Source of the DNA: Membranipora membranacea
Lineage: Eukaryota > Bryozoa > Gymnolaemata > Cheilostomatida > Membraniporidae
Direction of reading: 5' to 3'
Assembly (NCBI GenBank): GCA_914767715.1
Contig: OU612068.1
Location: 4,960,001-5,024,000, forward strand
Length of the DNA: 64,000 bases
Below the pieces are notes generated by a model. It ran no database searches. It had not been told where the DNA came from and saw only the letters and a program-made list of their open reading frames with translations. The position numbers and the translations under genes were made by a program. Below are positions 5,200 through 46,486 of this stretch, piece by piece (within the stretch, counting starts at the first letter, position 1; the number at the start of each line of letters is the position of its first letter).

Positions 5200-5498
5200 A
5201 TTACTGTATCACTACCACTACTAAGGTAGCTTATATGGTACCTTCCTGTTAGAGGAGCAAGCATTTCTTTAGCCATCGATATTGTATCACTACTCACAAC
5301 AAAAATCAACTGGTCTCTGCCATGCTTATCAGCCATAATCTTCATTGCTTGTTCGTAGAATGTTGCGTTGGTTGCTGTATATCTGTGCTTCATAAGTTTT
5401 GGATCAAGAATATCTCCAAGCCTGATATGAACCCCAACAAATTGAGGGGATGAGATTTCAGGAAATTTTCGTCTGATATCTTGAATAGTATTTTTGTT
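5145..5498 (-). pseudogene. GT11-type alpha-1,2-fucosyltransferase fragment, truncated by the repeat array
   Basis: Reading right to left, an exon opens after a plausible acceptor (TTTAG, complement near 5499) and encodes a segment with FVGVHIRLGDI. This matches the HxRxGD donor-binding motif of glycosyltransferase family 11 (GDP-fucose to beta-galactoside). It is followed by a YEQAMKIM...LIFVVSSDTISMAKEML stretch typical of the next conserved block, where the family has a YxxAM...FIVFSDD pattern. The frame then enters sequence shared with the 2-kb repeat at about 5199 and ends at a stop at 5145, before the family's second conserved block. No exons upstream or downstream were found. It is best read as a gene remnant cut by the repeat; a live exon of a larger gene is possible but less likely. 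Confidence 0.65.
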
Positions 5499-9793: not shown

Positions 9794-10538
9794 CTAATAT
9801 ATGTCTGTCTTCTGGCCTGCTTGTTTGAACTGCTGTACAATAGCATCAATATAGGCACCTCGTTTAGCAAATCCATCTCTCATTGTAGGCAGGAGAAGCA
9901 TGGTGTGTGCTTAGCCTGTCTTGACAAGCTTGTCAAGACAGGCTAGGTGTGTGCTCTATTTAGTACAATGTGGTTATTCTCCTTGGAAGAGCAACTCATA
10001 GCCATATCATACTCTTGAAAACTTAACACTGATCCCGACTGCTGACAGGCTTGTATCATCATCACCTGATAAAATCAGCAAAATTAATAATCTCATCACT
10101 AATTGTGGGATTTGACTCACAATCTGATTAATAATGGATTGAAAAAGTCACTGAATATGTGTCATGCCACACAAATTGAGAGAGGAGCAATCAACTAATA
10201 TTTTGCCAGGTATGACAATAATCTCACCATCGGTAAATCTGTAGGAGGTTTTGTTTTGAACTTCAGGAGGATATCATTGATAACAATGAAGCTGTCCCCA
10301 CCCTCACAGTGAGGCTCACATTTCAGGTTTCCTGCTCGACCATGTGACATGATACACACCATCAGAAGTGACCATCCGACTGCTGCCTGTATTGCATTAT
10401 CTATAAGGGCACTAAGCTCTGGTTTGGTTGCCCATTCCTCTCTAATGACCTTGGAACCAACAGCTTCTAATCCTGACTGCAGATTGTCTGCTTCTTCTAC
10501 GGCTCCATCACGAGATGCTGGATTGTACAGGATCAGAG
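9794..10538 (-). pseudogene. Caspase-like cysteine protease (C14), last exon interrupted by a palindromic insertion
   Basis: Two minus-strand exons. Exon 10228-10538 (left limit a good GTGAGA donor; right limit probable, acceptor ATATAG) encodes LILYNPASRDGAVEEADNL, a caspase p20 start, and LLMVCIMSHGRAGN with the catalytic His of the SHG motif. Exon 9794-10065 joins in phase 0 and begins VMMIQACQQSG, with the catalytic Cys in the QACxx position (QACRG in classical caspases). It continues into a p10-like segment (LPTMRDGFAKRGAYIDAIVQ) that ends at a TAG at 9794. A 34-bp palindrome plus one copy of a 10-bp direct repeat (9902-9955) interrupts this exon. The palindrome's first three bases are an in-frame TAG, so the frame stops early; removing the 44 bp restores a continuous frame. 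No prodomain (CARD or DED) exons were found upstream. In this haplotype the protein would lack most of the p10 part. Caspases cleave after Asp in cell-death or inflammatory pathways; whether this one did is not shown. Confidence 0.78.
9902..9955. mobile_element. 34-bp perfect palindrome with 10-bp flanking direct repeats
   Basis: 9912-9945 is perfectly self-complementary: TAGCCTGTCTTGACAAG followed by its reverse complement. It is bounded on each side by the same 10 bases, GGTGTGTGCT (9902-9911 and 9946-9955), as expected for a target-site duplication. It lies inside coding sequence of the caspase-like gene. Related whole or half copies occur at 16613-16631, 37468-37485, 39774-39809 and in the duplicated segment, so it is a small dispersed family. 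Confidence 0.8.
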
Positions 10539-12017
10539 CTATATGTTTGTGGGTTGTTGTAATATAAGATGGTCATATATTTCTATTTTAGCAGAGAAAA
10601 GATGATAGTCAATAGGTCGCCTCACAAGACTCCATGTAATGTCTCTGTCTCTATCTGTCTCTGTCTCTATAGGACGTATCGGTGAAGACCTAGTTATTCA
10701 CCATACAAGTATGACAGATTTCAAGTTCAGTCTGGTCAACATGACTTTGAATGAATACAATCACTCATAGAACTCGAGTAGAAGGCTAAAATCTTTCAAC
10801 CTAAATGGCCCTGCATGCTCCGCAGGTACCATTGTGTGATTTTTTTGTGCATTTAGTCAAGCATTAAATACCCAAATATTTTATTTGGACCAATAATAAC
10901 ATATCGGATATGTTATCCGATTGAATTTATTTTGTATTATACCTTATTAGACACGTTAAAAATGAATAATTTAGTTTCAAAAAGGGCATTTGACTAATTT
11001 TGTCGGGGATTGGAATGAACGTCGGCTGGACCGAACGTCGATGGGAATGAACGTCAAAGGGAATCATGAAATGAACTTAGAAAGTGCTGGATTGAACGTC
11101 GACTACATTAGTTGGTATATAGATATATAGATCAATGGGTATGCAACTCCCAACATAATTGTGTAAATTGAAGATGATCATTCACAAAGGCACTCACATC
11201 TGTTATGATGATGGTTACCAAATTTCTGTTGGCTTTATGGAATCAAGCAGTTATGTTGTGCATAAACTGAAATGGTAATGAAATACTGTGAGAGAAACAG
11301 GGCCCCTTTGTATAATTTTATCAGGATACGATGATCAAGCATCAACGAAATCAAGTTTTTTACCTCCAGCGAAATCGGCGCGACTAATGAATCATAGTTT
11401 ACTTTAATTTACTTTAATTTATTTTTTGTAATGGTAGTTATAACAGTGCACAATTTTTTCCTACGCCCTGTCCACCAGTCGTAATTTATCCAACTGGCTA
11501 ACTCGTATCACGGATGCTTGATAGTTATCACATCCGTTATGTCTGTGACAAGAACATCAAAAATTCTGCTGGAGGCAAGCACAGTGATCACGCTATATAC
11601 TATTGCATGTATATCTCTGAGCGATAGAGAGCAAACTAATTCACTGACCATAAAACCAACAGAAAAAATTTGGTGTGAAGACCCACAGTCTTAGTCATTA
11701 ATTAAGTATTAACTTGTTATGTTGAGGCTAAGTCCATTAATAATAAATCATCTTCTTATTAAGAAGATCCTGGATGTCCAAAATCAGTCAAAAAGGGAAG
11801 GCCCAACAACACCTCATAAATAATAATATAAGTATATTGGTGTCAAACGTCAATGTGGTGGCATTTTGGCCTATTTTTGAACATAGGCAGTGATAAATGG
11901 AGCTATGAAATAAAGTTATCTCTCAAAATGCAATCTGCTGAGGCACATTATAGTTGCGTGAAGTGTTGAATCCTACATAGACCAATTTTAGTAGTCAGAA
12001 TAGTGCAATTACCACAA
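10539..12017. other. Intergenic or upstream interval without a called gene
   Basis: Lies upstream of the caspase-like exons (minus) and of the lyase gene (plus), so a divergent promoter region is likely somewhere here. A cluster of GAACGTC words at 11019-11100 (five occurrences with mixed spacers) is the only local pattern seen. I could not find prodomain exons for the caspase-like gene. Confidence 0.4.
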
Positions 12018-15000
12018 ATGATTGCGAAAAAGGTATCTTCTGGCTTACTGCAGTCTGCAAGAATCGTAATAGGTCCGCAAAGAGGGAGGTCAGCAAGCAG
12101 TCTGGTAAGTATCAATAACTTTGATAGGATCTATACAAATGTTATAGCAAGTTCCCCGATGAAAACTCCATCCAAAATTTTTAAGGTTGACAGAGACATC
12201 AGAATGAGTTGAAAATTGATGACTTTCGAGATGTCAAGATCATTGTTTCATTTGTTATTTAGGTTTGAGAACATTATCTTTATTGATTATGGTTTTGGTT
12301 TTTCAACCTCTTTTTTTCCTTCTAGTCTCAGGGATTCAAGCCCCAGGGAAGCATTGCAGCTCCATTCACGCCTTTCAAGGCCAATGGGTGAGTGAGACCT
12401 ATCTTCTCTGTGTGGATGTTGAAATAAAGCTTTCATTTCAAATTCCTTGGTGAACTGAAAACAGTAAATTTTTATCTGTATTCTATCTGTCTGATGGCAA
12501 GCTTGCAAGATGTGCCAGCATCTACAGGAGGGGTAATCCAACGCTCTGTCTCTTCATTGCAGAGATGTAGACAACGGTAGAATATCTGACTATTGTGATC
12601 ATCTGAAACTATTTGGTGTACCCAGCACCTTTGGTGAGGATAAAACCTGTTTGAGAGATTAAGCAGTTCCAACCGGGATTTTGTGCTGCGAAATCCGACT
12701 TGGGCGCATGTGCCATAGACAGCTGTGACAGCACATCCTGTATAAATGAGCTTGTCTCGAACCCATCAAGAGTGCAGTTGTCACTCAATTAATTAATTTA
12801 TGATGCAAGGTATATTTTACGCCCCTTTATGCATTAATACAGCGACTTTAAACCAGGAATAGGTCAAAGAAATGGTACTTGGGAGTCAAACAATTTCCTA
12901 CATTTCCTAATTCTCCCCTTGTATCTAGTTCAGTTTTTCTACAACTTGTGAAATTTTTAGTGAATGGAACAGCAGGCGAGGGCTTGTCAATGACAGTGAC
13001 AGAGAGGAAACAACTTACTGAAGCTTGGATGGATAACAAACATAAATTTGAAAATCAGATATTTCATATTGGGGCATCAAATCTTAGAGACTCCCAGGAG
13101 CTGGTGAGAATAATTCATACATAGCAGCCTATCATTATTTATACATATACCTATTATTTTCTGTATAAATGACTAACATTTTGATCTAGATTTGACATAT
13201 CAATTTGGTTGAGAAGACAAGTGCAGCACATGTGTATCAAGAAAACAGAAATTAAATCCCCTGCGTTGTAAAAGATTGTTGTCAATGATTAAGATTAGCT
13301 GGCGAGGCAGTTAGGAAGAGTGGAGGTAACCAATTGCCCCATCCCTTGTCATATGCCATGACTTGGGAGACATATTCTTTATGACCCAAGATCAAACATA
13401 TCTAAGTATTAATCTGCGTAGATGCTTCCATGGATTGGCCACACCAGGACTTCTCTTTAGGGGAGCGCCTTCGAAGGCCGTATGAGTGCAGCTTATCCTC
13501 ACTCTGAAGTGTTAGACTTTTGGGAGCCAGGTGTTCATGATAAACCTACATGTATGTATTTTTTCTACTCGTAGGCAAGACATGCCGAATCGACAGGAGT
13601 GGATGCTATAGCATGTATCACACCAAACTACTTCAAGCCTCAGAGAGTGGAGGATCTGGTTGAATATATGAAACTTGTTGCTGCGGAGGCTCCTAACACC
13701 CCTTTTTATCTGTATGATATCAACTTTATGACTGAAGTCTACTGTAAGTGTACATATTCCACCGCTCTCATCCTTATCTATCAAAGTGATGAAGGTCTAG
13801 ACGCCACAGTGTGTCATTTTGCACCCACTGTCATTGCTCTTGAATTATTAGAGTTGCATGTCTGAACATAATTGTTATAAACTTCCTGTCATTTGACATA
13901 AATATTAAATGTTGTCGGAGCCTGTGCTCCAAGGGCATGCACTCTAAATTCCTAACTTATCTTCTTTCCCTGAATCCGTCACCCTGCTTTAACGGGCTCT
14001 TTAGATTAAAACAGTGTCCAATGAAAACCGCTAATTTGAAATGGTCAAGATATAGGAATGAGTTACTTTGCAATTATCCAGATGGCTTAGAAAATATCTA
14101 TCTTTGTTATGGATGGTATAGTGGATAACGTACGATTTCTGGATCTGGCAGAGAAAGTCATACCTACACTAGTCGGAATAAAACATTCATCACCGAATCT
14201 GAACAGCCTGATGAGATGTCACAGATACGGGGGAGGAAAATACCAAATTTTACGTGGCAGTGATGATGTGAGTAGACAGCAATATGGCAAAGTTTCTGCT
14301 GCAGACAGAATCTGACAGCAGTCATGCTCAAGAATAGAAACCACTGCTGCCACAGCTGGGCTTTGCACGGCATAGCCACCAGTCAAAAATTTTAATAGAG
14401 AGTTGTGGCATCAAAACATCTAGCCAGTAGCTTTGAATGGAGTTATATGAGCTCTCAAAATGTAGGGTGTATCTTCTTCCCCAGCCATCCACCATTAGTG
14501 AGTGATGACTAATGTTGTTGTTGACCAATCAGGTGCCTTTAAAATCTAGCTGAGATCCAACACTAATAAGAACAACATGTGTCATCACTAATGGTGGATA
14601 GCTGGGGAAGAAGATACTCCCTACGGTTTGAGAGCTCAGCTCATATAACTCCATTCAAAGCAAGGAGTAACCCTGTTACTCCTTGATTCAAAGCTATTGG
14701 CTAGATGTTTTGATGCCACAATTCTCTATTTAAATTTTTAACTGGTGGCTATGCTGGGCAAAGCCCAGCTGTGTCAGCAGTGGTTTAAGCATGGCATTTA
14801 AGAAAATCCCGCTGCATGATTTTTTGTGGCTGTGATGAGCAATGAATAAGTTGTAAAAAGTCCCATTGCAGGTATTATATTATTTATTATGATCTCATTA
14901 TTCAATTCTACCTGCTGCGTTATGATAAAAGCTCACCAGCTATGGTAGCCTGAAGTTTTGGTCATGTTTCACAGATAATGTTACCAGCTCTTGCTATGGG

Positions 15001-20117: not shown

Positions 20118-20303
20118 ATGTTTTCTAATATACCCGGTGGTAGTATGCTGAATAACATAGGTGGTAATATCTCCAACCTCGGAGACAAGGTACCTGGCGC
20201 AGGTACTCTGGGTAATCTTGGTTCTAAGCTTCCTGGCAACCTAAACAGTTTGAACCCAACTAATCTAGCAGGCAATTTTACTGGAGCAGCTGGTGCTACT
20301 GCG
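20118..20303 (+). CDS. Candidate first coding exon, Gly/Asn/Leu-rich, gene unknown
   Basis: An ATG at 20118 opens a 62-codon stretch that ends at a donor-like GCG|GTAAAT (20304). The product is low in complexity with a recurring G-N-I/L-x-x-L-G pattern (NNIGGNISNLGD, TLGNLGSKLPG), almost free of charge. If unspliced, the frame reaches a stop at 20330 (70 residues). The donor leaves phase 0, which would match a cryptic acceptor inside Rab3 exon 1 (CCTCAG at 21196-21201), but that acceptor has no pyrimidine tract, so an alternative Rab3 N-terminus is only a possibility. I do not recognise the protein. Confidence 0.35.
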
Positions 20304-21161: not shown

Positions 21162-24100
21162 ATGTCTTTGAATCGTGAGCAGGGCGGTCCAGTACCTCAG
21201 GCAAGATCAGCAGGCGGATTCACTGCTGCCGGGGATATGAGTGGTAACAGTACGCAAGCCGACGGGAAGTGGCAGAAAGATGCTGCAGACCAGAACTTTG
21301 ACTACATGTTTAAGCTGCTGATCATAGGAAACTCCAGTGTAGGAAAGACTAGCTTTTTATTCAGATACGCTGACGATTCATTCACGTCTGCCTTTGTCAG
21401 CACGGTAGGCATTGACTTCAAAGTGAAGACAGTCTTCAGAAATGAAAAGAGAGTCAAGCTTCAAATTTGGGTAAGTTTGATATCCAATAATTCAATTCCT
21501 AGTTCCTATTTGCATCACTTAATATCACTTTGAACTAGTATAAACCTAATTGATTTATCAGACAAAAGCTGACTTTATCAATGGTATCCTACCTTGGACT
21601 AACCATTACCTTTTTCCTGAAATTAAAAAAATGGCATTAGGGGCTGCTTCCACTATAGGACTACAGCAGAACGATCAAGCTCCCAAGGGCGACAGTACAA
21701 AATTAACTCTAGTTATTAAACACTTGTATGTCTGTCAGAGGCTCAGATATGAATTTATACTATGTTGTATCTGATTATTACAGGATACAGCCGGCCAGGA
21801 GCGATACAGAACTATAACCACAGCTTACTACAGAGGAGCTATGGGCTTTATACTCATGTATGACGTGACTAACGAGGAATCGTTCAACGCTGTTCAAGAT
21901 TGGTGAGTAACATCAGCAAAGCAGCTCATTTGAGAATGTTCGACTTGAAATTTGATATTTTTTACCGACCCCAATGTTTTTCTTTGTGATAACTCAGTGC
22001 AACGACTTTGCGTCTAAAAATGGAAAAGGGAAGCACAGCATTGAAACTTGTTTGCTCTTGATGTGTGAAAAAGCTTTCTATTTTCCAAACGTTGTGTGCT
22101 GTTGCTTGGAACTAATATTCAATTAATCTATCCCTTCCTACCCCTTGATATATTGATGTCAGCATAAGCGCTAAGACCTACACAAAGAGTAGATGTCATC
22201 TTGCTTTATAAAACTGTGGGATTGTCGAAAAAATATGATGGGGTCTGAACTCCGCATATAAGCTTTGGCATCAAAACCATTGAAATGACACCTCCAAGTG
22301 TGAAACTGACAGGTGTTCAAATCTCTCCTCTCGTCACAGGTTAACTAACATAGAACAACACGCAGTGTATAAAATTCCAGTCATTTTATGTGGAAATAAA
22401 TCTGACCAGGAAGACAAACGCCAAATTCCTCTCAGCATCGGGTCAAGCCTAGCCGACAAATTAGGTAAAAAACCCGTCTCTGCCTCTGAAACTTGATGTA
22501 TGCTGGGCTAGATTTGTCTGGTCTGTTTGCGGTGAAGGGTTTGGCACATATTCATCTGTGACTTCATCTTTCTCACAATTGTCAACCTGAGACTTGGCTA
22601 TGACGGCCAACCATGACCAAAATCATTTTTCAAGGCACCTGAGTATCGGTATACAACCTGGATAGTTTTGAGCAAAATTTGCTGTAGATACTGATATGAG
22701 AAAAGTATTGCGTAGCATTTGCCATTTGGCCAATGTCACTAATTAACAAATATCCCTGGATCACACTTTTCAAAAGTTCTTCAAATTAGAATGTGTGTCT
22801 TGTCTTCTGAACACGCCAGATAGTAAAGACTCAAATTCAGTCATATGTGGCAACTCATTTACTGTACTCATAATATAGATACTCTAAATAATATGTAGGT
22901 AAAATAAACAATCCTACACATTCCAGCCGGTCGGAGGGTGACGAAATTTACAGGTACCCTCATTTTCTAAACAACCACCTTAATCAATATGGTGCATTCA
23001 TAACAACAAGAATGGTTATAATAGAGAGAGGTTAGGTATGTAAGAACACCAGCGTAACACCACCACCACAAATAGCTGAACCACCCAACAGATGATTAAT
23101 ACCATATATTTGTGAATCACAATACCCATAGGGAGTTGTTTGGTAAATAATAAATGCTGTCAGCCACAGCTGCTCAAGTGACATGACTTATAGAGCACTA
23201 ACTTATGATCATTGATTAGACTTATTGTAATATATGACACTTGAGATGGTTATCTTATCTCTGACCGGCTCTCTGGGTGTGAATGGACCAGATGCTTTTG
23301 CTAAAATCCTAACTCATGGTGCTTCGCACACCAAAACACGCTTCTAGAATCAGGTCTGTGAAATGCCTGAGTAGAATACCACCTGAGCTCTTGCAGGCCC
23401 TAGCCTAGCAGATCTCTAGATTAGACCTTAAATCAGGGCCTGTGATAAGCAGGTGCTAGTTATAGCCTCAATCCACTCAGATTCAAAAGGCCTACTCACT
23501 TAATGTCAGATCAGAAATTTACAGCAAGTCAATGACCCTTTAGTCTTCTCTGTCTCACTTGACCTCCATCCATAGTGCCCAGTCCGAATGGATGCCTTAT
23601 ATCCCAATCTTTCGATGGTTTGTCGTACATTTTTTTGTCAGCAATGTTGGCCGTTGACACATTTCTTGAAACTGACAGCTTGTTAATTTGAATACTTATC
23701 ATCTGTTAGGTGTACACAGATAAAGATGTATTCATGGGATAACGCACAGGTGGTGCTAGTAGGTAATAAATGTGATCTAGAAGATGAACGAGTCGTTACT
23801 CAAGACAGAGGACAGAAATTAGCCGAACGATTAGGTATTCTACATGTTGTAAGCTTGTAGTCAGCCATCTCTATATATCATAATAACACCGGTCACTTCT
23901 CTCTATATGCATCTATATTTTGTTCTTATGCTTTCCTTTCACAATGATTTGCTACAAACATCATGATATTGGTTAGAGGATAATATCTTCATGTTGTCTG
24001 GGTTTGATGACATCGCCTGCTAAATAATGGATACGGGCTTACAATATTGTTTGAGAACTGTGCCATTAGCTTGATTTGGTTAGCAAATGTATCTTTGCTG

Positions 24101-25699
24101 ACACATTAGCTATTGATTTGGCTATTTGAATATTAGGGCATTCTCTGCAAAACAAATTTCTGGACATTGTTGTAGTAATGCTAATGGACAGCCTTGTTTC
24201 ATCAGCTCTCAATAGGCATGTGTATGTTAACTGGATGGGTATATCTGCTGACTCAGTGCAGGGATAGTTCAAGGTCCTCAGCATCATATTTCTCATTATT
24301 AATACTGCACAATAAGCTGGCTTCAGGATCAATAAAATTGCAAATTCTAGATAACCTAATTCATTGACGCAGGCTAGCTAAGCTTTGAATCATTCTGTTT
24401 AGCCTGCCTGCCATTTAACACCCAGTAACATTTCATGAGAAATTATTGACAAAAATAATGATCATAAGCTTAATGTTAACTGGCAGTAAGTAATATACAT
24501 GAATAATCAATTATCAAAACTAGTAATGCTCAGCATCATATTGACAGCAGCTCATTTTGGCAGCACTAGATTTATGATGACTATTAGATAAGTGAAAGTT
24601 TTCTTGACATATCCTCATAGATACTTACTATCTAACTGGTCCAACCTCATCCCATCGGTACTGTGCATGCTCTTAGAGTTTGTCTTTTCTTTCTATAATG
24701 TAAAAAGTGCCCCGCGTAGTTAGTATACATTCTATGTTCCGTTTCCTCTGGTTTAGTTTCTATATATACTTTTTCCTGTTTTACCTACAGTCAGGTATTC
24801 TGACATCACAGCCCAACTTTAATTATAGGTTTGTGTAGATCAAGTTTGATCCAATATGCTGCTTTCCGGTAGCTCCCATTCTACTGATGAGCTGGCGGCT
24901 CAAACACTAATAGCAGACATATTGAATCATGCTTGATCTAACATTTGTGCACCCGGATTGCTATTCGACAAACCATTGCCATGTGGCTCAAAAAGCATCA
25001 GAGAAAGAATATTTCTGTCTTATTTTGTAATATCTGAGACTAAAGACTTCATTTTACTGATTGCTAGTCAGAAGATCAACACTTCTTTTGACTTTTCTAC
25101 GATAAATATCATTGAAAAATCTGAGAAACTGTAGATACAACATACAGCGGTGCGCGTCTGAGAGTATTTTGCATTTGCCTGATACCGTAAGGATTACATC
25201 ATCTCTGTTTCCTTTGCTACAGGTCTTGAATTTTTTGAGACATCAGCAAAAGACAACATCAACGTGAAAGCTGTGTTTGAGCGCCTAGTGGATATCATCT
25301 GTGACAAGATGGCTGAAAGCCTGGACTCTGATCCAAACATGATTCCCAATCAAACTAAAGGTAATAATTATACTCAATCATGTTACATAGTGAGAAACTA
25401 AGATTCCATGATAACTCCAGATAATAGCCTAGGCACCAAATATTTCTGAGCGTTGATGACTAGCACATGCATCTATTAACAGTTTTCTGCTGAAGGTAAC
25501 CTCAGAACCATTGATTCTAAATTTTACTAAAACAAAGCATGTCAATCAGTCGTAATTGCTGTTGAAAGTACAATTGAAACATAATATGTAGCTGAGACGA
25601 ATACTTTCTAGAGATTATAAATTTTGTTTCATCATTTTATAAACAGGGCAAAGATTAACGGAGCAGCCGGGCCAGCCTAAGCAGGGAGGATGCTGTTAG
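21162..25699 (+). CDS. Rab3: Rab3 small GTPase with two mutually exclusive exons
   Basis: Synaptic and secretory vesicle GTPase. Exons: 21162-21470, 21784-21902, then either 22340-22464 or 23710-23834, then 25223-25360 and 25647-25699. Either choice gives 247 residues. Visible motifs: P-loop GNSSVGKT (56-63), switch [10 protein letters not shown] around Thr81, [19 protein letters not shown] (104 onward, a Rab3 hallmark), NKCD or NKSD (162-165) depending on the exon, ETSAK (190-194), and a C-terminal Cys-Cys for double geranylgeranylation, where vertebrate Rab3 mostly ends in Cys-x-Cys. The N-terminus before the P-loop is about 25 residues longer than usual. The first alternative exon departs strongly from Rab3 while keeping every framework residue needed for nucleotide binding. 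Intron 4 carries a foldback element (24836-24940). Confidence 0.95.
22340..22464 (+). CDS. Rab3: Rab3 alternative exon 3a (divergent G4 region)
   Basis: 125 bp, acceptor CACAG, donor GTAAAA, entering in phase 2 and leaving in phase 1, exactly as the second alternative does. Encodes [22 protein letters not shown] and a following helix ending SSLADKL. Forty-one residues, the same number as exon 3b, with NKxD at the same position. Helix alpha-3 and loop residues differ from all Rab3 I know and are closer in style to Rab8/Rab10 (WLxNIExHA). Because 125 is not a multiple of three, using both exons would shift the frame. Confidence 0.88.
23710..23834 (+). CDS. Rab3: Rab3 alternative exon 3b (canonical G4 region)
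   Basis: 125 bp, acceptor TGTTAG, donor GTATTC. Encodes [20 protein letters not shown] followed by [21 protein letters not shown], the canonical Rab3 sequence ([20 protein letters not shown] in other animals). Aligns residue for residue with exon 3a, 1.25 kb upstream. Confidence 0.95.
24836..24940. mobile_element. Foldback element, TAGATCAAGTTTGATCC family, in a Rab3 intron
   Basis: Starts TAGATCAAGTTTGATCCAA and ends TTGAATCATGCTTGATCTA, which are near reverse complements. The interior is also partly mirrored. Relatives lie at 57065-57172, 60755-60867 and, more diverged, 63401-63568. Confidence 0.75.
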
Positions 25700-29700: not shown

Positions 29701-32310
29701 CAGATGAAACATAATATTTTGATAAATTCACATCCAAATAGACATAATGAACAGTAAATTGATGATGGTTTAGCCTGAAACGCCGGCATTTTGCTATGTT
29801 AGCTATAATCTTCTCCAGCTAAATAAGAGGAATGCCTAGGATGGTATGTATGTCTAATGATCGAACCAAAACGAGTCAAATAAAGTGAAATAAACAACAA
29901 CATTATAGTTTCTCGCATAATTTAAACCTGACTGATATTGTAATCACATCCTCAATCAGTTACATCAACAAAGTTAGGCAGCCAATCAAAACGCTTAACT
30001 AAACCCAACCTACCTGTACACGTCAAATGACGTTCTCAAGGCTCCTGTCAACATATTAGCCATAAGACAGAAGGTGTTCACCATCAGAACACCATTGAAG
30101 ACCTTCACTCTGAATGGTCTCAGTATAGCAAATGCGATGAAGTATATTAATATGACTATGGTCATCATCATTGTCTGCAAAAAAACGTCTAATTAATCAA
30201 GGTAAAATAATAAGCAATGAGTATCTGTGCAAGACACGGATTTGTAATAATCATAGACTTTATATACATCTATGTATATACCAAACGACAGTGGCTCCCA
30301 TAAGTTTTTCCATCTTTATTTTGCTATACTTGTAATTTGAACATTTAAACTGAAATCAGGGAATTTAGTCGGAGTTCTCAGGTGCAATTAGGCAGAGATT
30401 TTGTGGTGCATCCCTCTCAACGAGTAATGCCACAAGATAACTCCACAAATGACCACCTAAGCGCTCAAATTAGTTGTTTTCAGAGATGACAAGTGAGTGA
30501 TGCTCACCTGGTAGAGGCTGTGGTTAAACAAACTGGCATAGAATAAGACAAGTACTAGTTTGAGAAGGTGATTGGCCGCTCTGAAGTGTGCTGCTCTGAG
30601 TTTGAATGAGGAGAAAATATGGAATCCACTGATGATGTACACAATATCAAGCCCCTGGGCGTACTCTGTCTCCTTCAGCTGTAAGTACGCTTCATGACCT
30701 GGAAGTATACGAAAGTAAAACAGGAATAATCGTATACCAACCAAATTTAAAAGCATGCAGATATTGGTTGAGTTCAGGGCAACATGTTCCAGAAATTGAT
30801 GTTGTTGAGTTCAGGACAATGTGATTCTGAAAGATCAAAAATTACTGCAGCTGAGAGTTTTGTCTGGAAAGTACATTATATAACTAAAGAATGAATCATC
30901 ATGTAGACAGGTAGCGAAGCTGAGTATTTGTATCATCGATAAACGAAGAGGGTATGTAAACTGACCACTAGCATGGCTGAAGATGAGCTCCTTTTTGGTT
31001 TTCTTTATCAACCAGAAGGCAAATCCTTTAAAGGTTAGAATTGCAAAAGCAAAACATCCAGCAGCATAGGCCCACTGTACATCTCCATAGCACTGCTGTG
31101 TGTTGTCCACATACATAATGAAGGATTCTTGCTGCGGGTCCAGTACACAATGGAAGACTTTGCCAATCGCTAAACCAATTGGAAGCGCAAGAATCTGGAA
31201 TCAAATAAGGCTCAAATGAGAATGTAGAGAATGATATCAGGGGATACAACTGGATGGGGCTTTCAGAACACATGAATATAGAATCGGACCTCAAAACGTT
31301 ATTGTTGAGTTCCAGCACTGAGCTGATAATGACACGAATTATGAAAAGAATTAAATTTACCTGTATCATGATGATGTAAACTCTCTGGAGATTTGATATT
31401 TTGATCATCATAAATGGATCATCTCTCTTTGACAGGACGATATATGCCACAACGTAAGCCAGAGCTAAGCAGAATAGGAGCGTGCCCAAGGCAACAAGAA
31501 AATGCCAATAAGAAAAGAGCATCAGGGTTGAATCAGATGAGAACTCTTGAACGCTCTTGTATGTCATGTTACTTGACACTTTGCTGATTTCCCACGCATC
31601 TAAGTTGAAGGCAAATAGCCATGACATGTATTTTATCCAATTCTCCGGCCATGGCCATCTCAATGCCAATGACTGCACCTAAAGTCGTAAAATTGAAGAT
31701 GATATTTATATCATGAAGGGCAAACAACTGATGAACAGCTATATCTGACAATGAGGTTGAGTACTGTTTGTCTGATTGGGTGACTCAGATAAATCAGGTA
31801 AAATGATTCTTTAATTGGTCAATATTTGTGATAATATGAAACGAACCAGTGCAAGGTATTGAATATACTCCACAGTTAGAATGCAAAAGTCATTCCATAT
31901 AAGCATTGTGCCCCTCTTCTTGTCATCCGCAAATAAGACGCGATCTTCATCAAAGTCATCTTCCCAGTATTCCTTTTCACGTACCACATCCTCCAGGTCG
32001 GTATTGAAGGCAGGATTGTACAGCCTACATGGAATGGGAATCAAAGTATATGTTTATTTTGCAGAATAATTGAATAAACAGGTTGCCGTCTTGTCAACAT
32101 ATTCAGCACAAAATGGGTTCAAGTTCCTATATGATTGTAACTTCTGGGCCTGTATCCCATTATTTCAACCAAAACCATGAAAAGTATCATGGTTATGAAG
32201 TTATAGATGAAGCCATTTGTGATGGTACAGAAAGGTTCCAACAGCTAGTATGAGAGACAAAGGTGTAATCATCCAACTCACCCTGACTTTTTCTTGCCTG
32301 TTGAAGTCAT
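26755..32310 (-). CDS. Multi-pass membrane protein of unknown function, 746 residues
   Basis: Thirteen exons join in consistent phase on the minus strand: 32282-32310, 31847-32024, 31361-31678, 30966-31194, 30508-30698, 30014-30174, 29467-29693, 28950-29098, 28371-28554, 27793-28016, 27550-27594, 27110-27210, 26755-26959. The short first exon encodes MTSTGKKKSG and joins in phase to LYNPAFNTDLEDVV. An acidic cytosolic-looking N-terminus is followed by eight or nine hydrophobic helices (for example around WHFLVALGTLLFCLALAYVV, TMMMTIVILIYFIAFAIL and VNGGWLVFTLAVLAYLLL). A soluble, partly helical domain with many Leu/Glu/Arg follows, then a Ser/Pro/Glu-rich tail ending EPNVAV. No transporter, receptor or channel signature I know. 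The WNDFCILTVEYIQYLAL...LRWPWPENW opening is distinctive. It starts 469 bp from DNAAF4 in divergent orientation. The donor after 31847 (GTTCGT) is weak. Confidence 0.8.
27640..27753 (-). mobile_element. tRNA-derived SINE
   Basis: On the minus strand it begins GGAGGTGGCTCAGTCGGTTA (A-box) and contains GTGGGTTCGAATCCCAC (B-box), then a conserved non-tRNA tail (CATCGACTACTGGGTTTGG, then TTGGCCC). The acceptor ends do not pair as in a functional tRNA. It lies in an intron of the membrane-protein gene, about 40 bp beyond the donor of the 27793-28016 exon. A second copy is at 58874-58969. Confidence 0.85.
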
Positions 32311-32779
32311 TCTATTATTATGGCTGAGCAAAGGAACAGCCTCCTTTTTACCTCTCATTTTCTCTGAAACGTGGAACTAGACTTTGAAAACAAGCTATAA
32401 AGCAGTGCTTGTGTTTTACTGAGATTGTGGACAACCCAACATTCCTCTGATAGATCGGTACACAAGTAAAAGCAAGTTTTTTTTAGCTGACAAATGATTG
32501 CAGGTGCTACTTGGCAGCCATTTGTAAACAAACTGGGTTTCCCTTCTCGTAGTGTCAGGGAATAATGCGAGATTTCATAGACACATTAAAAATTATATTT
32601 CATTAAAACTATTATTCATCATATGTCAATGATATTGACCTTGAACTAGGTGCCTAGAGCTTTGTAAACAAAATTAAGATTTTTCACTCTGTTAGAGTGA
32701 CACTTTGAGACCCAAGTTCATTCATCACTTCTCTACCACACCAACGCAGAACTAACACTTGATTGACATACGGATAAAA
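32311..32779. promoter_or_regulatory. Divergent promoter region, membrane-protein gene and DNAAF4
   Basis: 469 bp separate the two start codons in head-to-head orientation, so a shared bidirectional promoter is likely. No TATA box stands out. The right-hand copy of this interval is 41042-41510, where the left-side gene is reduced to an orphan exon. Confidence 0.5.
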
Positions 32780-35700
32780 ATGCCTTTAGTTATCAAGGAT
32801 TACAGCTGGGAGGAAACACCAAAGACAGTAGCAATAAGTGTTCCTTTAAAAGGTGTAAAAAAAGACAAAGTGAATATTCTATCATCAGATGAATTTTTAA
32901 AGGTACATAACATACACAGGGTATATATTGTATGATCTGATAGTAGGGTATGTTTCTGACTGTCCATACAACATCATGAGTAGGCTAAATTTGTTGATCT
33001 TGTTTAGCATAGCCATGATCTACAGCATAGAAGATCTGCTTTTAACTAGATTATAATCAATAAAATAAACTATCATGTTCTTTATATATAAAACATGTCT
33101 GAGTGTATACTTAAAATATTTGATAGCTGAACAAGGTAATCCACTTATTTGCAGGTGAGCTTTCCCCCATACATTTTTGAAGTTTTACTATTTGATCTGG
33201 TGGACGACTCTTCCAGTACAGCGCGAATCGACAATGGAATGGTGCTATTTACCCTGAGCAAACTCACAGAACAAACATGGGGTCGACTCTGCTCTCCTGT
33301 TATGGGTAAGAAATCTTACCTTCCGAAACCTCAAAACCCTGATTGCCAATGTCAAATAGGTGATGAAATCAATTTGGTTCTGTTCTCCTCAGAGGTTTAT
33401 TATCATCTAAATAATTGCCTGAGGAATGCAGCTGAAAATGCCTTCCATGTATGTTAATCCAAGAGGTAATCCCATTGGCTTTTTTCTGAAAACAAAAGAC
33501 CTACAAGAAGTTTTAAAATTCTGATATGAAAAAGGCGAATAATTTAAGTCTATCACTATCTTTTCGTACAGAGAATAAACCAGCATATAGACTAAAAATA
33601 GAGGAGAATCTAGTCAAAATACAACAAAAGGCCGAAGAAGAAGACAAGAAAAGAGTGGAGAAGAAAAGGGAGAATGAAAAGCATGCCTTACACAAAGCTA
33701 TGGATGTAAGTTACTTCGCTACCTGAGCTGAAATCAATAGTGATGATTTAAATAATTTGAGTTGGGAGCATGGATGAATGTGCTGTTCATGGTTTGATCT
33801 ATTTTCAAGTTTCTGTGCATTACAGTTTGTAAATAACTCCTTATTTATTCTTCTAGCATGATCAACAAGAACGTGAGAGAATTATTGCTATCAAAGAATC
33901 AGAAAAAAAGAGAGCAACAGATGAACTAGAAAAATGGAAAATGGAACAGCGTCAAGCAGCATTGGTAGTAAGTTAATGTCTTTATCTTCAGTTATTTTGT
34001 TTTCAACCTGTGGCTGTGTGAGGGTCATAATAGCTGCTAGACACTTTGGTTACTAGTTGATAATGAGAAAATGATATACGCAGATAGATATACACAGGTA
34101 TTAATTTTTAGATTCCTCAGAGTTGTACATGCTGTTACTTTTTTGCGGCATTTAGTACATGCATCTTTCTCATTGCAAATTTTGGTAGGATATGCCTTTC
34201 AACTAAATTTCGGACTCAAACCAAGAATAGTAGTATCAAAGAGCTGTCAATCATTTGGCTGACCATTTTGTTACTTATATGTTGAAGCACAAGGCTTGTT
34301 TGCTATTTAGGAGAAGGCTATGCTTGAAGAGGTAGCAAGAAAAGAAAGAGAACTCCGAGATGCAGAGCATAGACGCGAGAAACTACTGGAAAAAGCCAAA
34401 CGCAAGAGTAAGTTGGATTATTTGCATAAACATAATAATCTTAATCAGAACCATGGAATATATGATTATGGTCAGAAAATGGAAAACAACAGGATATGCT
34501 TTCCGAGAACATGAACACATAGGTACATATATACTTGATTTGTTGCAGACAATGTGTTTGAAGCTAACTCTGAGGACTCTGTGAGAGAATCAGGAAAAAT
34601 AGAAGTGAAATTTACTCCTCGTGTTTTTCCAACTGCCATGAGGGAGTCAACAAAACATCTAGAAGATGAGGTAAATCATGGTGAAACATTCTCTGAATGA
34701 AGCTTCTGATTTGTATGAGCAGGTTAAGCTCGTTCAGCTACAATCAATATACAATCAATGTACACCCATGGGTATATCTTATATAATTTCTGTTTGGAGT
34801 GTGCTTCTTTACCACATCTCCATATGTACAACAGCTATTACTGATTTTGATCAGCTGATGGCAGTAGGGAATATGTCCTTTTAACATCCTGGCATTTGCG
34901 AGAGAAGTCTGATTTTTGGGATGGGCTTTTTTCTCTATGAATTGGGTCCTGCCATCCTGAGCTGAGACCTCAAATCATTACAGTGAGAATTTTTAGCATT
35001 CCATTTTCAAACCCTCCATTCGCACCTACTGCCATCTTAGCTTTATACTTATATTAGCTACTAGGACACTGATACCTCAATATAACTTATTTCTGTTTCC
35101 AGTGGTTGAAAAAGCAAGCGGAAGCTTCCAGAACGGCTGATATTGCAGACTCAGATTTGTCTGAAGAGGAGAGAAATCCGCTATTCATGAAAGATAAAGC
35201 AGAGTAAGTTTCTTGTGGCCGTACTTTCAATGCAGTTCAGTTTAAACCAAATGTTTGGAACTTTCCATGAACAGAATTGATTAAAATTGCGGAATAACTT
35301 AAAGTGAAAACAAGTCACACTGATCTGAGGGAATATTCTATACATTGAGCTTTTACGTTTTATTTTGTAAACTAAATCAAGAGTTTATTCATGTTCAGAA
35401 AAGAAAATATTTCAAATTAATTTTCATTTTGCAGCAAGTTTTTCAAAAACGGAGACTTTCAGGCAGCTGTGAATGGATATACACATGCAATCAGACTGTC
35501 GCAGGGCAAGATGCCATCGTATCCTTTTCATACCTCAGATGCAAGAAGATCTGTAACTTTGAGTTGGGGACAGCTTGTTCATATTACCGTTAAAACTAGG
35601 AAGTTGTAGAACAGCCCTACCCTTTTTCCTTGGGAAAATTGCATGAAGCACAAGTTGTTTAGAACTTCGATTCTGCTGTCTTTCATCGACTACAGCATCT

Positions 35701-36970
35701 CTTGGCAACATCTGAGTTAAATCTGTTGATTAGTTCTGCTCTTTGACGCTGATTAAACTGCGAAAGAGGACGAGCATTTACAAATCTATACCATCTGGTA
35801 CTGTTATTGTATTGTTTCCTTAGCTTTGCGTATTTCAGATTGTACTCCAATCGAGCAGCGTGCCATCTCAAGTTAAGGAATCTCATCAAGTCTGTAGAAG
35901 ACTCCTCTAAAGTAAGTCGGTCTGATTAAAAAATTATGAAAGATATTGAAGATAGCTGCAGGCTTTCCATGTTACTCCTCAAAATAGGTTACATTAAATG
36001 CAAGCTTTCTCCAGTCAAGACAAACACGCAAGCTAAACTCTAGCTTACCCTTTGTCCGCGCCCCCACCCCTCCGAAACATATAGATTGTCAATACAAGTT
36101 AGCCAGAGCCTGACACTGTAATAGCTAGTATTAACCAGTGATTAAGTAGTCAGGTTTGATTGGGTTAAACATCTGTCATCCACTGCATGTGATGAACACA
36201 CTAAATACCCTCTTCTGTCTGCCAATTTGCAGCCATAAAGTTATTCCGCAATACTGGCCTTTGGCCTCCAGAGTTTTCATTGCTATTCAGTTACAATTTC
36301 TATAATCACCTGCATTTAAAGTCTATGCCTGCATTATATAAATATATTGACATATATCTGAATTTACTTTAGGCACTGGAGTTGCTGACTCCTGCAGTAC
36401 CACAGAATGCTTCTAGTAGAGTTAAAGCCCATGTGAGAAGAGGTACTGCTTTCTGTGAGCTGGAGCTATATGTGGAAGGTAATTCAACTGTTCAAATTAT
36501 GTTCAATAATTTGTCTGTTGTAATGAGTATTTTATCCCTGTTTAACCAGGAACTTTGGGACATATGCATTGAACTCGCTGGTTTATCTTCTTTGTTTTGA
36601 AAACATTATACATCAAAAGGTGTGAGAGTCGTCTCTACTTATTTAAAGGTATCACAACTTCAACATCAGTTTTTGTGTTTTTCATGTTCCAAACTCCCCA
36701 GTGTCAGCTTTGGCATATCAAGCACAAATTTAATTTTATTTTCACTATTCTCTAATCTATATCGTTTGATCTTGATTAAAGCAATTTAAAACACTTGGTA
36801 TGGTAAGAATAGTTTGATCCTGGATGATGAGATGATACATTATCTTGAATTACTATCTGTTTACAGGTCTACTCGACTACCAGGCAGCTTTAAAAATAGA
36901 CCCTGAGAACCAGCAGCTGATTAAAGATGAAGAAAATATCCGTCAGATAGTCCAGAGCAGCGAGGGGTGA
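32780..36970 (+). CDS. DNAAF4: Dynein axonemal assembly factor 4, copy 1
   Basis: Cytoplasmic co-chaperone (DYX1C1) needed to pre-assemble axonemal dynein arms for motile cilia. Eleven exons: 32780-32902, 33155-33305, 33572-33705, 33857-33967, 34311-34407, 34549-34670, 35103-35203, 35435-35518, 35839-35911, 36373-36478, 36867-36970, giving 401 residues (human 420). An N-terminal CS/p23-like domain ([20 protein letters not shown], about 1-90) is followed by a long Glu/Lys coiled coil (about 95-215), the family signature [15 protein letters not shown], and C-terminal TPR repeats ([52 protein letters not shown]). All phases agree and no frame damage is seen. Confidence 0.95.
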
Positions 36971-37467
36971 TACTAAACTAGGAAGTGAAATTATTGCCCC
37001 CTGTTTCGCTTCTGTCAGGTACAACGAGGATTTGTGACCTAAGGAGATAACAGCCTGCCTTCTGGGTGAAACAGCATGAGTCGGGTTTTTTTTGCCTGTT
37101 TCACGAATATTAATTTCCACAATTCATTTATTAGCTCTTGGTGAGTTTTTGTCTCTTTAGTGCCTATATGTGGACAAGGTTTATCAATAAAACTCAGACA
37201 CCTCACTTGATGGGGTTCAGCATCTATATAAGAGGAAAATGTCAATATGTATATGAATCAGTAAATAGCCAGCAATTTAATTTTCTCAATAGGAGCCAAA
37301 AAGTTGTATTTTGTCAGGTATTCAAGAAAACCAGGTTTAATCTAAGCAACAAAGAATTATGACATCAAACCCCCACTGCCAAAGGTACTAGAAAATGTGT
37401 AGTTTGTCTACCAATCCTTTCTACCTCTTGTGTGTAGGTAAAAACAACCATTGCAGGTTTTAAATTA

Positions 37468-37485
37468 CCCTGTCTTGACAAGCTT
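37468..37485. repeat. Half copy of the 34-bp palindrome family
   Basis: CCTGTCTTGACAAGCTT matches the left half and centre of the palindrome at 9912-9945. It lies between the convergent DNAAF4 and PHM 3' ends and is repeated in copy 2 at about 46200-46217. Confidence 0.55.
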
Positions 37486-39263
37486 CACTGTTACGGGCAC
37501 ATGGAGAAAACCACATAGTAAAACCTATCCTGTTGCTTCCTCAAACTTCAGCTGCACTTAAAGCATAGCTTACACCTCATGTGTCAGAACTTCACTATTT
37601 GAGATTGCCACAAGAAGCTATTCCAGTTAGCTTTGGCTTAAAATAAAGCCCAACAGTACTGTGTAAAGATAGTCGACTCTATGCAATCATTTTTATTGAA
37701 AATAAAACCTTTTCCAGCAAAAATGATTTAGCTCATTGGGCTTTGAAGCTGTCTTCACGGTTTGTACTCTCGCTTTTGATAATCGGGTTCCATCATAGGT
37801 CGTACGAGGTTCACTCTATCATAAGAACTAGCATCTGCAGGTATGTCTGAAAATATATAGTGATTATAATATAAATATGTAGCCATTTAATATAATATAT
37901 TCGGTCAATGACAGTCTCGCTTTTTTTGGGATTTAACGGCACGAAGCGAGAATTTGTGGCATTCCATATTCAAACTTCTAATTGAACAGATGCTATTCAG
38001 TGCCATTGAATCTTGTTTGCAAACTCTTGAGCCTGTTCCACTGATGTCCCGAATATTTTTGTAGTCTGACTATTGTCACTGATATTCTTTTATCTTACCT
38101 TCTTCAGCATAGAAGTCAGTCCAGTGGAATGTCTGGGCATCTTTGAAACAGTAGCCATCATCTAAGTTTTCCTCGGCGTCGGTGTAATACATGAAATAAA
38201 AATTGCACATCTCATCTTTGTTGGTAGCTCTAAAAAGAGGAAACGGACTGTAATTTCCGTGACAAATATAGTATCCCCATGTTTTTCATTGGGCAAGAAC
38301 AAATCACAGTACTAATAAAGTTACAAGTCATAGAAGGATCTTTCTGTGTTGTCATGGAAAACATTGGCCAGGCAATATCCTTGTGCTTGTTTGCCCTCAT
38401 TAAAACCATGTTGCTAAATCCGTATTACACCAACTACTGCGCTTTTTAAATTTTATATTAACAACTAAACATAGTAATAATGACAGCTAGGGGCAAACAC
38501 TTGTATCATAAATCTGGTCACTTTAGAAGCTTTATAGATTTGCATCATGGCTGTGTGTTGGTTAATCAAACCCTCTGTTGTAAGAGTATAACTTACCCAA
38601 TGTTGGTATTCTCCGTCCGATTCATACTGCTCATCATACATCTCCCCGCCAATACGTCGCCGTTTCTGATATCCATCCCAGGGTGTGTGACATCATAGAA
38701 CATCTCGGGCTGCTGCGGAGACATACGACCAATCTCAGTCCATTCCCCATCTCTTATTCTGTAACCTGATGTTATTCTACCTGTGGGTCATGGACAGAGA
38801 GCTTTAATATGAAGAATATATATTATGATGGCTGATGACAACCATAGCGGGTATACATTTATATTGTGAATCTGGAATGCAAAATTATAAATGAAAAGCT
38901 GTGAACCAAAGTGTCAAAGCTCGTACTTGATTTTTGTAATTTAACTCCGTCACCAAATGGGAACAAGAAGATAACCATTGGCTTGCATATGAAGATCATG
39001 CAAACATAAATCGACAAGATTTGCGTTACAGTTTTGCTGTTCCATAATACATAATCATACCTAGATTGTGTGCGTGGGTTCTGTATCCGAAAGGGTATAT
39101 GGTTCTATTCTCATTATAAGGACAGGCAGATTCTAAGTGGAATGCTGAAAATAGGAAATAGGAGCTTATATGCCAAGTTATCTTTGATTTACTTGACAAT
39201 TGAAGGAAATGATTGATTAATTGGTATTATATCGATATTGTTTTAGAACATGTGGTACACATT

Positions 39264-39373
39264 AGTTTAAGTGCTCAAACGGTGCCAGATGCTGGTAGAG
39301 GCATTTCATTATCAACCATGGTTGATAATGAAATGCCTCTACCAGCATCTTACACCGTTTGAGCACTTAAACT
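39264..39373. mobile_element. 110-bp near-perfect palindrome in PHM intron (copy 1)
   Basis: Begins AGTTTAAGTGCTCAAACGGTG and mirrors itself around CCATGG at its centre, with GATGCTGGTAGAGGCATTTC on the left and its complement on the right. One small mismatch zone near each shoulder. Related to CACCGTTTGAGCGCTCAAAC near 9369. The duplicate is at 47996-48105. Confidence 0.85.
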
Positions 39374-39773
39374 AGGTCACGTTAGAACGGCAAATTCGGA
39401 GCTAATGTTCTATCAAAATGAGAGACTGCAACAGGACCTGGTAGTAGAAGGGTAGGTAAAAGGAAATGTTAACACATTATAACAAGCTTCTTCCTTCGAC
39501 AAAACATGTACTTTGATAAATAAACCAAGGACCAGAGGAACCTCTAACTCCTGTGATAAACTCACCTGGTTGCTGTGGTGGAATGAATCCCCAGTTTCCA
39601 AGAATATAGAAACCCATCTGATTTGGCTGCCTTTAAAATTGGAAAGGGTGGTCACCTGGATTCCCGGTATTGCATTTGGACAATTGGAATAATTAAAAAG
39701 TTCTGCTGATGTAGCAATTGGGATTATCCTAGTACAATATGTTTCAGTCATTATTAAATGCACAGACTTCAGT

Positions 39774-39809
39774 TAGCCTGTCTTGAAAAGCCATGTTGAA
39801 ACAGGCTTA
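39774..39809. repeat. Diverged full copy of the 34-bp palindrome family
   Basis: TAGCCTGTCTTGAAAAGCCA followed by TGTTGAAACAGGCTTA has the same ends and length as the element at 9912-9945 but with several changes. It lies in a PHM intron; the second copy is near 48506-48541. Confidence 0.55.
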
Positions 39810-41012
39810 AAAACTTTTACTCCTTGCTATAACTACAGTGAAAACACACATATGGCCAAGTGGATCCCGAATTGGTGGTAGTTGAACTGAATCGTAAGTT
39901 ATAACTCACTTTTCATCGGTGATTCTGAGCGTGACTCCACTATGATCATAATGTCCCTCTGAAAATTTTAAAAGCCAGCATTATAACAATTATTCACAGT
40001 TTACTGTCCATGAAGCTAGCCTAGTACACTCATACAGGTTCCCTTATTGCGATAAATCACAATCCGCAAACCTTTTTCAGCGCTTTTAAAATTATTGTTT
40101 CCCTGTTTCCCCAGTAATTTCATGCTGGTTGATTATGTCAAGGAAGAAAAACTCAATTACACTCGTTTTTACTCTACATTTGTGGTTACTACTTGCGTAG
40201 AATAGTTTTAAATTGATGATCATACCACAGCCAGCCCTTAATGGTGTTCGGGAAAGCGATCGTGGCCGTAGGCAGCCTTTGAGGGCTGGCTTCGGATCAG
40301 ACCAGTGTAGGGCCACTCTTGCATCTCATTAGGCAGTTCGTACCTGGAAACTGTTTTTTGTAGTGGAGCTGAAGTACCATGTATTGGATGTCTGTATCAC
40401 CTCCGACTCTCAGTCCCACTCCTTCTGGCATTTTCTTACTGGGCGCGTCATTTGCCCATGCGTAGACAATCCTCTTACCCATCTGACCTTTGCCCTTTGG
40501 GACCTGGCCACAGACGTCTAATTCTTCCCTTTCTTTACCTCCACATTGCCTATTATTTCATAAATAAAATGTCAGGATACTCATGGTGGTACCGAGTGCC
40601 GCCTTTGTACACTAGCCTTGTCAAAGTGCCACAAAAAAGGGGCCGCACAAAAAGGCTACTTTAGTGAATACATTGCAGAATAGACTCTTTGACATAAATG
40701 TCTTTGTAATAAACAGATTTCAACAAAATCGCAATTACCTGCTCTCTTCACCTTTACGCATAACCAATCAGATAAAAGCGACACTCCGAAAATAAAAACA
40801 TATCACAACCCATGAACAGGTTGTCCAACCTGAGCGGTTGATTATGTGGACTGCCCACACACATGTTCTGTGGCTGCAATGGGAGCTTCCACCACTCTGA
40901 TCGAAGCAACTGATGGCTGTTGAAAATGTCATATACAGAAATGTATCTACATTTGACTAGTGACACTAATAAAACAAAGGCACTAAGCCAAAGGTGTAAT
41001 CATCCAACTCAC

Positions 41013-41041
41013 CCTGACTTTTTCTTGCCTGTTGAAGTCAT
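41013..41041 (-). pseudogene. Orphan duplicate of the membrane-protein first exon
   Basis: Identical to 32282-32310, including ATG and the GTGAGT donor. The left duplication breakpoint (32259) lies 23 bp inside intron 1 of the membrane-protein gene, so copy 2 kept exon 1 only. Reading leftward, the next sequence is a PHM intron and then PHM exons on the same strand. Confidence 0.8.
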
Positions 41042-41510
41042 TCTATTATTATGGCTGAGCAAAGGAACAGCCTCCTTTTTACCTCTCATTTTCTCTGAAA
41101 CGTGGAACTAGACTTTGAAAACAAGCTATAAAGCAGTGCTTGTGTTTTACTGAGATTGTGGACAACCCAACATTCCTCTGATAGATCGGTACACAAGTAA
41201 AAGCAAGTTTTTTTTAGCTGACAAATGATTGCAGGTGCTACTTGGCAGCCATTTGTAAACAAACTGGGTTTCCCTTCTCGTAGTGTCAGGGAATAATGCG
41301 AGATTTCATAGACACATTAAAAATTATATTTCATTAAAACTATTATTCATCATATGTCAATGATATTGACCTTGAACTAGGTGCCTAGAGCTTTGTAAAC
41401 AAAATTAAGATTTTTCACTCTGTTAGAGTGACACTTTGAGACCCAAGTTCATTCATCACTTCTCTACCACACCAACGCAGAACTAACACTTGATTGACAT
41501 ACGGATAAAA

Positions 41511-45702: not shown

Positions 45703-46370
45703 TACTAAACTAGGAAGTGAAATTATTGCCCCCTGTTTCGCTTCTGTCAGGTACAACGAGGATTTGTGACCTAAGGAGATAACAGCCTGCCTTCTGGGTG
45801 AAACAGCATGAGTCGGGTTTTTTTTGCCTGTTTCACGAATATTAATTTCCACAATTCATTTATTAGCTCTTGGTGAGTTTTTGTCTCTTTAGTGCCTATA
45901 TGTGGACAAGGTTTATCAATAAAACTCAGACACCTCACTTGATGGGGTTCAGCATCTATATAAGAGGAAAATGTCAATATGTATATGAATCAGTAAATAG
46001 CCAGCAATTTAATTTTCTCAATAGGAGCCAAAAAGTTGTATTTTGTCAGGTATTCAAGAAAACCAGGTTTAATCTAAGCAACAAAGAATTATGACATCAA
46101 ACCCCCACTGCCAAAGGTACTAGAAAATGTGTAGTTTGTCTACCAATCCTTTCTACCTCTTGTGTGTAGGTAAAAACAACCATTGCAGGTTTTAAATTAC
46201 CCTGTCTTGACAAGCTTCACTGTTACGGGCACATGGAGAAAACCACATAGTAAAACCTATCCTGTTGCTTCCTCAAACTTCAGCTGCACTTAAAGCATAG
46301 CTTACACCTCATGTGTCAGAACTTCACTATTTGAGATTGCCACAAGAAGCTATTCCAGTTAGCTTTGGCT

Positions 46371-46440
46371 TAAAATAAAGCCCAACAGTACTGTGTAAAG
46401 ATAGTCGACTCTATGCAATCATTTTTATTGAAAATAAAAC
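46371..46440. terminator. Facing polyadenylation signals between DNAAF4 copy 2 and PHM
   Basis: On the minus strand AATAAA (complement of 46424-46429) lies about 58 bp after the PHM stop. On the plus strand AATAAA words at about 46374 and 46433 lie 670-730 bp after the DNAAF4 stop. The two genes converge here, so their 3' untranslated regions may overlap. The same arrangement exists in copy 1 around 37639-37708. Confidence 0.45.
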
Positions 46441-46486
46441 CTTTTCCAGCAAAAATGATTTAGCTCATTGGGCTTTGAAGCTGTCT

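Follow-up and report, generated by a model that had tools for sequence, protein, structure and literature searches.

The Rab3 gene of the bryozoan Membranipora membranacea contains two homologous alternative exons of 125 nucleotides each, here called 3a and 3b, which to judge from their sequences are very probably mutually exclusive. Both exons lie in the stretch of 64,000 nucleotides analysed here (the window), and the predicted features of the gene are listed in Table 1. Each exon has the same phases and comprises 41 whole codons and, at either end, a single base from a codon divided between exons, and the G4 motif NKxD is kept by both at the same position (NKSD in 3a and NKCD in 3b). An AG acceptor or a GT donor is present at every edge from the end of exon 3 to the start of exon 5. 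The exon coordinates, the equal lengths and phases, the 41 residues and the placement of NKxD had been proposed in a sequence-only reading of the window, and all of them proved right when the sequence was read again. We consider it quite probable, on the strength of the gene structure, that this is a single Rab3 gene with a tandemly duplicated exon pair whose members are used one at a time.

The likeness of the two exons is far above what shuffled sequences give. Their bases are identical at 67 of 125 positions, whereas shuffled sequences average 33.3 and never exceed 52 (0 of 20,000 shuffles reach 67), and 15 of the 41 residues within the exon are identical (maximum 10 in residue shuffles, with 0 of 20,000 reaching 15). 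With the shared W included, 16 of 42 residues are identical and 26 differ. A chance match of 3a to 3b is ruled out by these shuffles together with the conservation described below. On the plus strand of the window there are 229 cassettes of the form AG-125 nucleotides-GT, 14 of which are open in this phase, and NKxD is found in 3a and 3b only. When the two isoforms were searched against the window, each exon was matched once and no third copy of the exon was found. In the window, the intron sequences next to 3a are not significantly similar to those next to 3b. Across the genome (339,339,785 bases in 18 contigs), 3a has a single DNA match; at the protein level it scores 83 bits at the Rab3 locus and 31 bits at the next best place.

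Table 1. Predicted features of the Rab3 gene in the window (positions are those of the window)
Feature	Position	Strand	Basis
Putative first coding exon (extends the N-terminus with Gly/Asn-rich sequence; predicted with least certainty)	20118..20303	+	Open frame and GT donor, in-frame join to exon 2
Exon 2: P-loop, switch I	21183..21470	+	Ras family match of 55 bits; aligns to Rab3 chains; frame
Exon 3: DTAGQE, switch II and first part of helix alpha-3; W codon split at its 3' edge	21784..21902	+	Splicing frame; alignment to Rab3 chains
Alternative exon 3a (diverged), 41 residues	22340..22464	+	Splicing frame; shuffles; conserved in P0001-P0004
VYK codons of 3a at RabCDR-2 (alpha3-beta5 loop) position	22365..22373	+	Alignment to Rab3; CDR-2 residues from the accessible text of PMC4552854
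NKSD of 3a (G4 guanine-specificity motif)	22395..22406	+	Sequence reading
Alternative exon 3b (canonical Rab3), 41 residues	23710..23834	+	64.0-67.2 bits to nine distinct PDB Rab3 sequences
WDN codons of 3b, equal to RabCDR-2	23735..23743	+	Alignment; accessible text of PMC4552854
NKCD of 3b (G4 motif)	23765..23776	+	Sequence reading
Exon 5: ETSAK (G5), helix alpha-5	25223..25360	+	Splicing frame; alignment to Rab3 chains
Last coding exon, Cys-Cys-stop at end	25647..25699	+	Splicing frame

Splicing in silico points to a choice between the two exons. When the coding exons in Table 1 are joined through 3a alone or through 3b alone, a Rab3 protein of 302 amino acids results. When both are spliced in, the frame is shifted, as the sequence-only reading had claimed, and a stop is reached a few codons into 3b; when both are skipped, the frame is shifted as well and a stop lies right past the junction. 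Nonsense-mediated decay generally removes mRNAs with stops upstream of exon junctions. Since more exon junctions follow the stops of the double-inclusion and skipping forms, decay of such mRNAs would be expected. The stop so close to the start of 3b would also suit a poison exon, that is, an exon 3a that yields no protein and that, when included with 3b, throws the transcript out of frame and so reduces the dose of Rab3 via nonsense-mediated decay. We regard this explanation as improbable. A poison exon requires neither a length of 125 nucleotides nor an open frame nor a Rab fold, but 3a has all three, and it further keeps NKxD and has a protein sequence conserved in four other sequences.

In some mutually exclusive exon systems the choice is enforced by competing RNA structure. 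An inverted repeat spans the 3b acceptor, and the best upstream pairing with this acceptor reaches -19.7 kcal/mol, with 7 of 100 shuffles as good; the ordinary acceptor of exon 3 does better in the same pairing test (2 of 100 shuffles as good).

It is also evident that the gene is a Rab3 gene with either exon. The 3a isoform matches 22 PDB sequences at E ≤ 1e-60; the nine best of these are Rab3, one of which (1zbd_A) carries the entry name Rabphilin-3A, and Rab8A comes next. The full Pfam Ras domain is matched at 202.3 bits by the 3a isoform and at 211.5 bits by the 3b isoform, and from NCBIfam a general small-GTPase model alone is matched by the Rab3 isoform. Together with the scores of 3b against the Rab3 chains (Table 1), these values agree with the earlier view that one exon is canonical Rab3 and the other is diverged with the GTPase framework retained. 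Both predicted isoforms end in CC, a double cysteine of the prenylation type; the C-terminus of Rab3 is usually CXC, which is absent from the Rab3 of this window. At the other end, the predicted protein carries an N-terminal extension of ~80 residues, among which Gly, Asn and Leu are abundant (window 20118-20303 and 21183-21250). This extension may belong to an alternative first exon instead of the main isoform, and a Met in exon 2 may be the true start of Rab3.

The sequence-only reading had suggested searching for the diverged exon in related genomes. We have found 3a in four database ORFs (P0001-P0004), which share 84, 77, 55 and 59% identity with 3a of the window when the edge residues are included, and their edges match; this conservation of 3a beyond the present gene, as far as these ORFs represent it, is new in this analysis. 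P0001 was found by a protein search restricted to 3a, P0002 and P0003 were added by a short-query search, and P0004 by a profile search. All four are ORFs on contigs of 2-8 kb that read straight through the exon edges, and the edges are those deduced from the translated ORFs alone. The conserved part always begins with R-LTNI, where the arginine at the acceptor edge fits AG/G, and always ends with DKLG followed by K or N, which fits G/GTAA. Among the five 3a sequences, 22 of 44 columns are invariant, including N, K and D of NKxD, and P0004 has ANKCD instead of GNKCD. P0005 (E 0.24, another Ras-like protein) was left out of this alignment.

The exon scores exceed those of all 200 shuffles in 10 of the 10 pairs formed by the five 3a sequences. 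For the upstream flanks, three pairs (window/P0001, P0001/P0002 and P0002/P0003) have P values of 0.04-0.06, two of them at 0.04-0.05 and the third at 0.06, and the seven other pairs are not significant; the likeness of these three pairs perhaps reflects shared pyrimidine tracts or close kinship. None of the six scorable pairs of downstream flanks is significant (four of the ten pairs could not be scored). A conserved exon with mostly unrelated flanks is, in such alignments, the pattern of a functional coding exon. It is thus very improbable that exon duplication left 3a behind as a copy that has decayed or is not used. Such a copy would account for the strong divergence of 3a from 3b and for the 3a donor, TAG/GTAAAA, which departs from the usual consensus after GTAA, but the frame of 3a is open, its splice dinucleotides are intact, and its sequence is conserved in four other sequences in which the flanks have mostly diverged. 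When the 302-amino-acid query was searched with matches restricted to 3a, a single-exon ORF was the sole match and no spliced Rab3 with 3a was obtained, and the 3a alignment gave 39 pattern matches in a genome-contig database, none of which was confirmed. No match of P0001 was found among the NCBIfam models. A search of viral contigs gave a single match, 17 residues long (L002).

We then consider the origin of 3a. The likeliest origin, given its place and its profile, is an old tandem duplication of the Rab3 exon, after which 3a would have changed faster than 3b. This is the simplest explanation because 3a lies between Rab3 exons and has the same length and phases as 3b, and it is also favored by a profile of the five 3a sequences, which matches Rab3 best among the PDB chains (41.3-52.2 bits, where Rab10 reaches no more than 34.4 and Rab27A no more than 33.7 bits, among the best 60 of 133 matches). 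Alternatively, 3a could have been captured from another Rab gene of the Rab27 or the Rab8/10 type, which would leave its mutually exclusive use unchanged. With 3a of the window alone, the PDB chains of Rab10, Rab27A and Rab3 score about equally (26.1, 25.9 and 25.7 bits), as capture would allow. The five 3a sequences and four Rab3 exons differ by fixed residues at four sites (N/Q at position 3, H/Y at 7, A/S at 8 and C/V at 17) and have no residue in common at nine further positions, whereas thirteen positions are invariant in both. At three of the fixed sites, H7, A8 and C17, 3a equals Rab27A in the alignment, and H7 and A8 equal Rab10 too.

A maximum-likelihood tree of the 42-residue exon (11 rows and 42 columns, with the Rab27A row shortened by one residue through removal of a loop insertion and the Rab10 row without its last three residues) rejects none of the three placements of 3a, but it prefers the Rab10 side (AU test, P = 0.72) and the Rab27 side (P = 0.51) over the Rab3 side, which fits worst and is near rejection (P = 0.057). 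The Rab27A and Rab10 rows were trimmed likewise in the exon alignment from which residues are compared here. Within the genome, 3a scores 21.2 bits against its own 3b and up to 31.0 bits against several other Ras-type genes, whose matches extend into the shared ETSAK tail at the end of the query whereas the match to 3b does not. Against capture stand the advantage of Rab3 in the five-sequence profile (~18 bits at best), the W of Rab3 at position 9, which is kept in P0003 and P0004, and the exon limits of possible donors. Two Rab27 genes and one Rab8 gene of this genome, partly read and named by their best PDB matches, have exon limits that differ from those of 3a, so that there is no obvious donor among them: both Rab27 genes read through the DW position within one exon, and in the Rab8 gene the frame is closed by a stop directly ahead of the residue that corresponds to 3a position 7, which means that the exon of this gene starts elsewhere. 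On balance, we consider capture unlikely and retain tandem duplication of the Rab3 exon as the likelier origin. The two Rab27 genes are located at C6:21513660 and C8:2849316 (loci L038 and L042; best PDB matches Rab27A), and the gene on C8 resembles the 3a exon at corresponding positions in having THAY and VLCGNK.

The block exchanged between the isoforms presumably comprises the late part of helix alpha-3, the alpha3-beta5 loop (RabCDR-2), beta-5, G4 and alpha-4, if the general layout of Rabs is taken for all but RabCDR-2. The two switches are coded by exons 2 and 3 and are common to both isoforms. According to the accessible parts of two papers, the alpha3-beta5 loop of Drosophila Rab3 consists mostly of WDN124-126 and is the second of the three RabCDRs through which Rabphilin is contacted (PMC4552854; PMC3327705), and these WDN residues correspond to exon positions 9-11. 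At this position 3b has WDN and 3a of the window has VYK, and the four other 3a sequences have VYK, VYQ, WSN and WPN. Without the WDN of RabCDR-2, the 3a isoform would represent a variant Rab3. The published RabCDR-2, as given in the accessible text of PMC4552854, thus falls inside the swapped block, in keeping with the earlier proposal that the varied surface includes regions of effector contact, and an effect of the swap on partner choice is plausible from the alignment. On the other hand, Drosophila Rab3 with WDN changed to AAA is described in the same accessible text as normally localised and as fully rescuing active-zone patterning (PMC4552854), which speaks against a large effect of 3a on at least that function of Rab3.

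We propose that the spliceosome would select one of the two exons per transcript, and that transcripts with double inclusion or skipping would be cleared by nonsense-mediated decay. Inclusion of 3b would give ordinary Rab3, and inclusion of 3a would give a Rab3 with the same P-loop, switches and Cys-Cys tail but a different block around G4. The 3a protein would be expected to bind GTP as Rab3 does and to retain GTPase cycling, with a shifted preference for effectors or regulators. Since CDR-2 and its surroundings change and the switches do not, altered affinity would be expected for effectors that read CDR-2 (Rabphilin type) rather than a loss of Rab3 function. More tentatively, the exon pair might be old and common to several lineages, one Rab3 gene giving two vesicle GTPases. 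In that scenario the surface of the 3a form might have become more like that of Rab27 (H-A in late alpha-3 and C in beta-5), and splicing instead of gene duplication might tune which secretory effectors are recruited in neurons versus other secretory cells; we hold this wider idea to be possible, though rather doubtful. If both isoforms are made, they constitute a natural experiment in which RabCDR-2 and its surroundings have been swapped by evolution with both switches untouched, and a single gene would then allow a direct test of the role of the RabCDRs in effector choice, in an animal phylum in which synapses have received little study.

Few synaptic proteins have been studied as much as Rab3, which is generally taken to have one fixed GTPase core. 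A limited search of the open-access literature, by titles and the starts of abstracts, found no description of such an exon pair for Rab3, in agreement with the sequence-only reading, which knew of none for Rab3. The 3a isoform may stand unremarked in a database of genome annotation. Among presynaptic proteins, SNAP-25 has a duplicated mutually exclusive exon pair (5a/5b) like that of Rab3, but SNAP-25 is a SNARE and not a GTPase, and the divergence of 5a from 5b is far below that of 3a from 3b. Vertebrates resemble the present case in having several versions of Rab3 per animal (Rab3A-D), which however are separate genes. Exon 3b and the Rab3A, B and C chains share 31-35 of the 42 exon residues mutually, 3b keeping 31 of 42 with each of the three chains, as compared to the 16 shared by 3a and 3b. 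To our knowledge, the closest Rab case to the 3a/3b swap is that of RAB6A and RAB6A', a pair that reportedly arises from a duplicated exon. As described in the accessible part of one paper, these are likewise two alternatively spliced isoforms of one Rab, but they are only three amino acids apart (PMC5474736), whereas 3a and 3b differ across the block alpha3-CDR2-beta5-G4-alpha4. Similarly, rab-3 of Caenorhabditis elegans is a Rab3 gene with variants, for which the accessible text of PMC3504004 gives two annotated proteins of 233 and 219 amino acids. Unlike 3a and 3b, these proteins are 14 amino acids apart in length and cannot result from an equal-length exon swap alone.

A second Rab3 gene is present in the genome on the minus strand of contig C3 (C3:13850000-13865200; loci L045 and L046). 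Its exon corresponding to 3b is also of 125 nucleotides, with length and position identical to those of 3b and 69% identity with it, and the 19.8 kb that were read yielded no exon resembling 3a. This animal may therefore have three kinds of Rab3, as predicted from these genes, namely the 3a form, the 3b form and the product of the second gene. The switch II and G4 exons of the second gene are present twice, ~11 kb apart, in 1.3 kb at 98% identity, and a further duplication of 3.1 kb at 94.6% identity lies nearby.

Several other features of the window and the genome were observed. The window contains an 8.7-kb tandem duplication (32255-49723) with copies at 32255-40991 and 40986-49723 that are 99.95% identical, which is either very recent or an effect of assembly. 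Tandem repeats of ~2 kb, 87-94% identical, occupy positions 1-5199. A fragment of Glycosyl transferase family 11 was found on the minus strand at 5145-5498, an exon with a Caspase domain on the minus strand at 10195-10572, and an exon of the Dihydrodipicolinate synthetase family on the plus strand at 13575-13865, the last of which perhaps codes for N-acetylneuraminate lyase. On a separate contig (C13:4168-4689, plus strand) there is a nearly whole Ras-family domain, intronless and with one in-frame TAG; as a guess, this stretch could be a retrocopy or else contamination, the latter perhaps from an organism whose genetic code differs.
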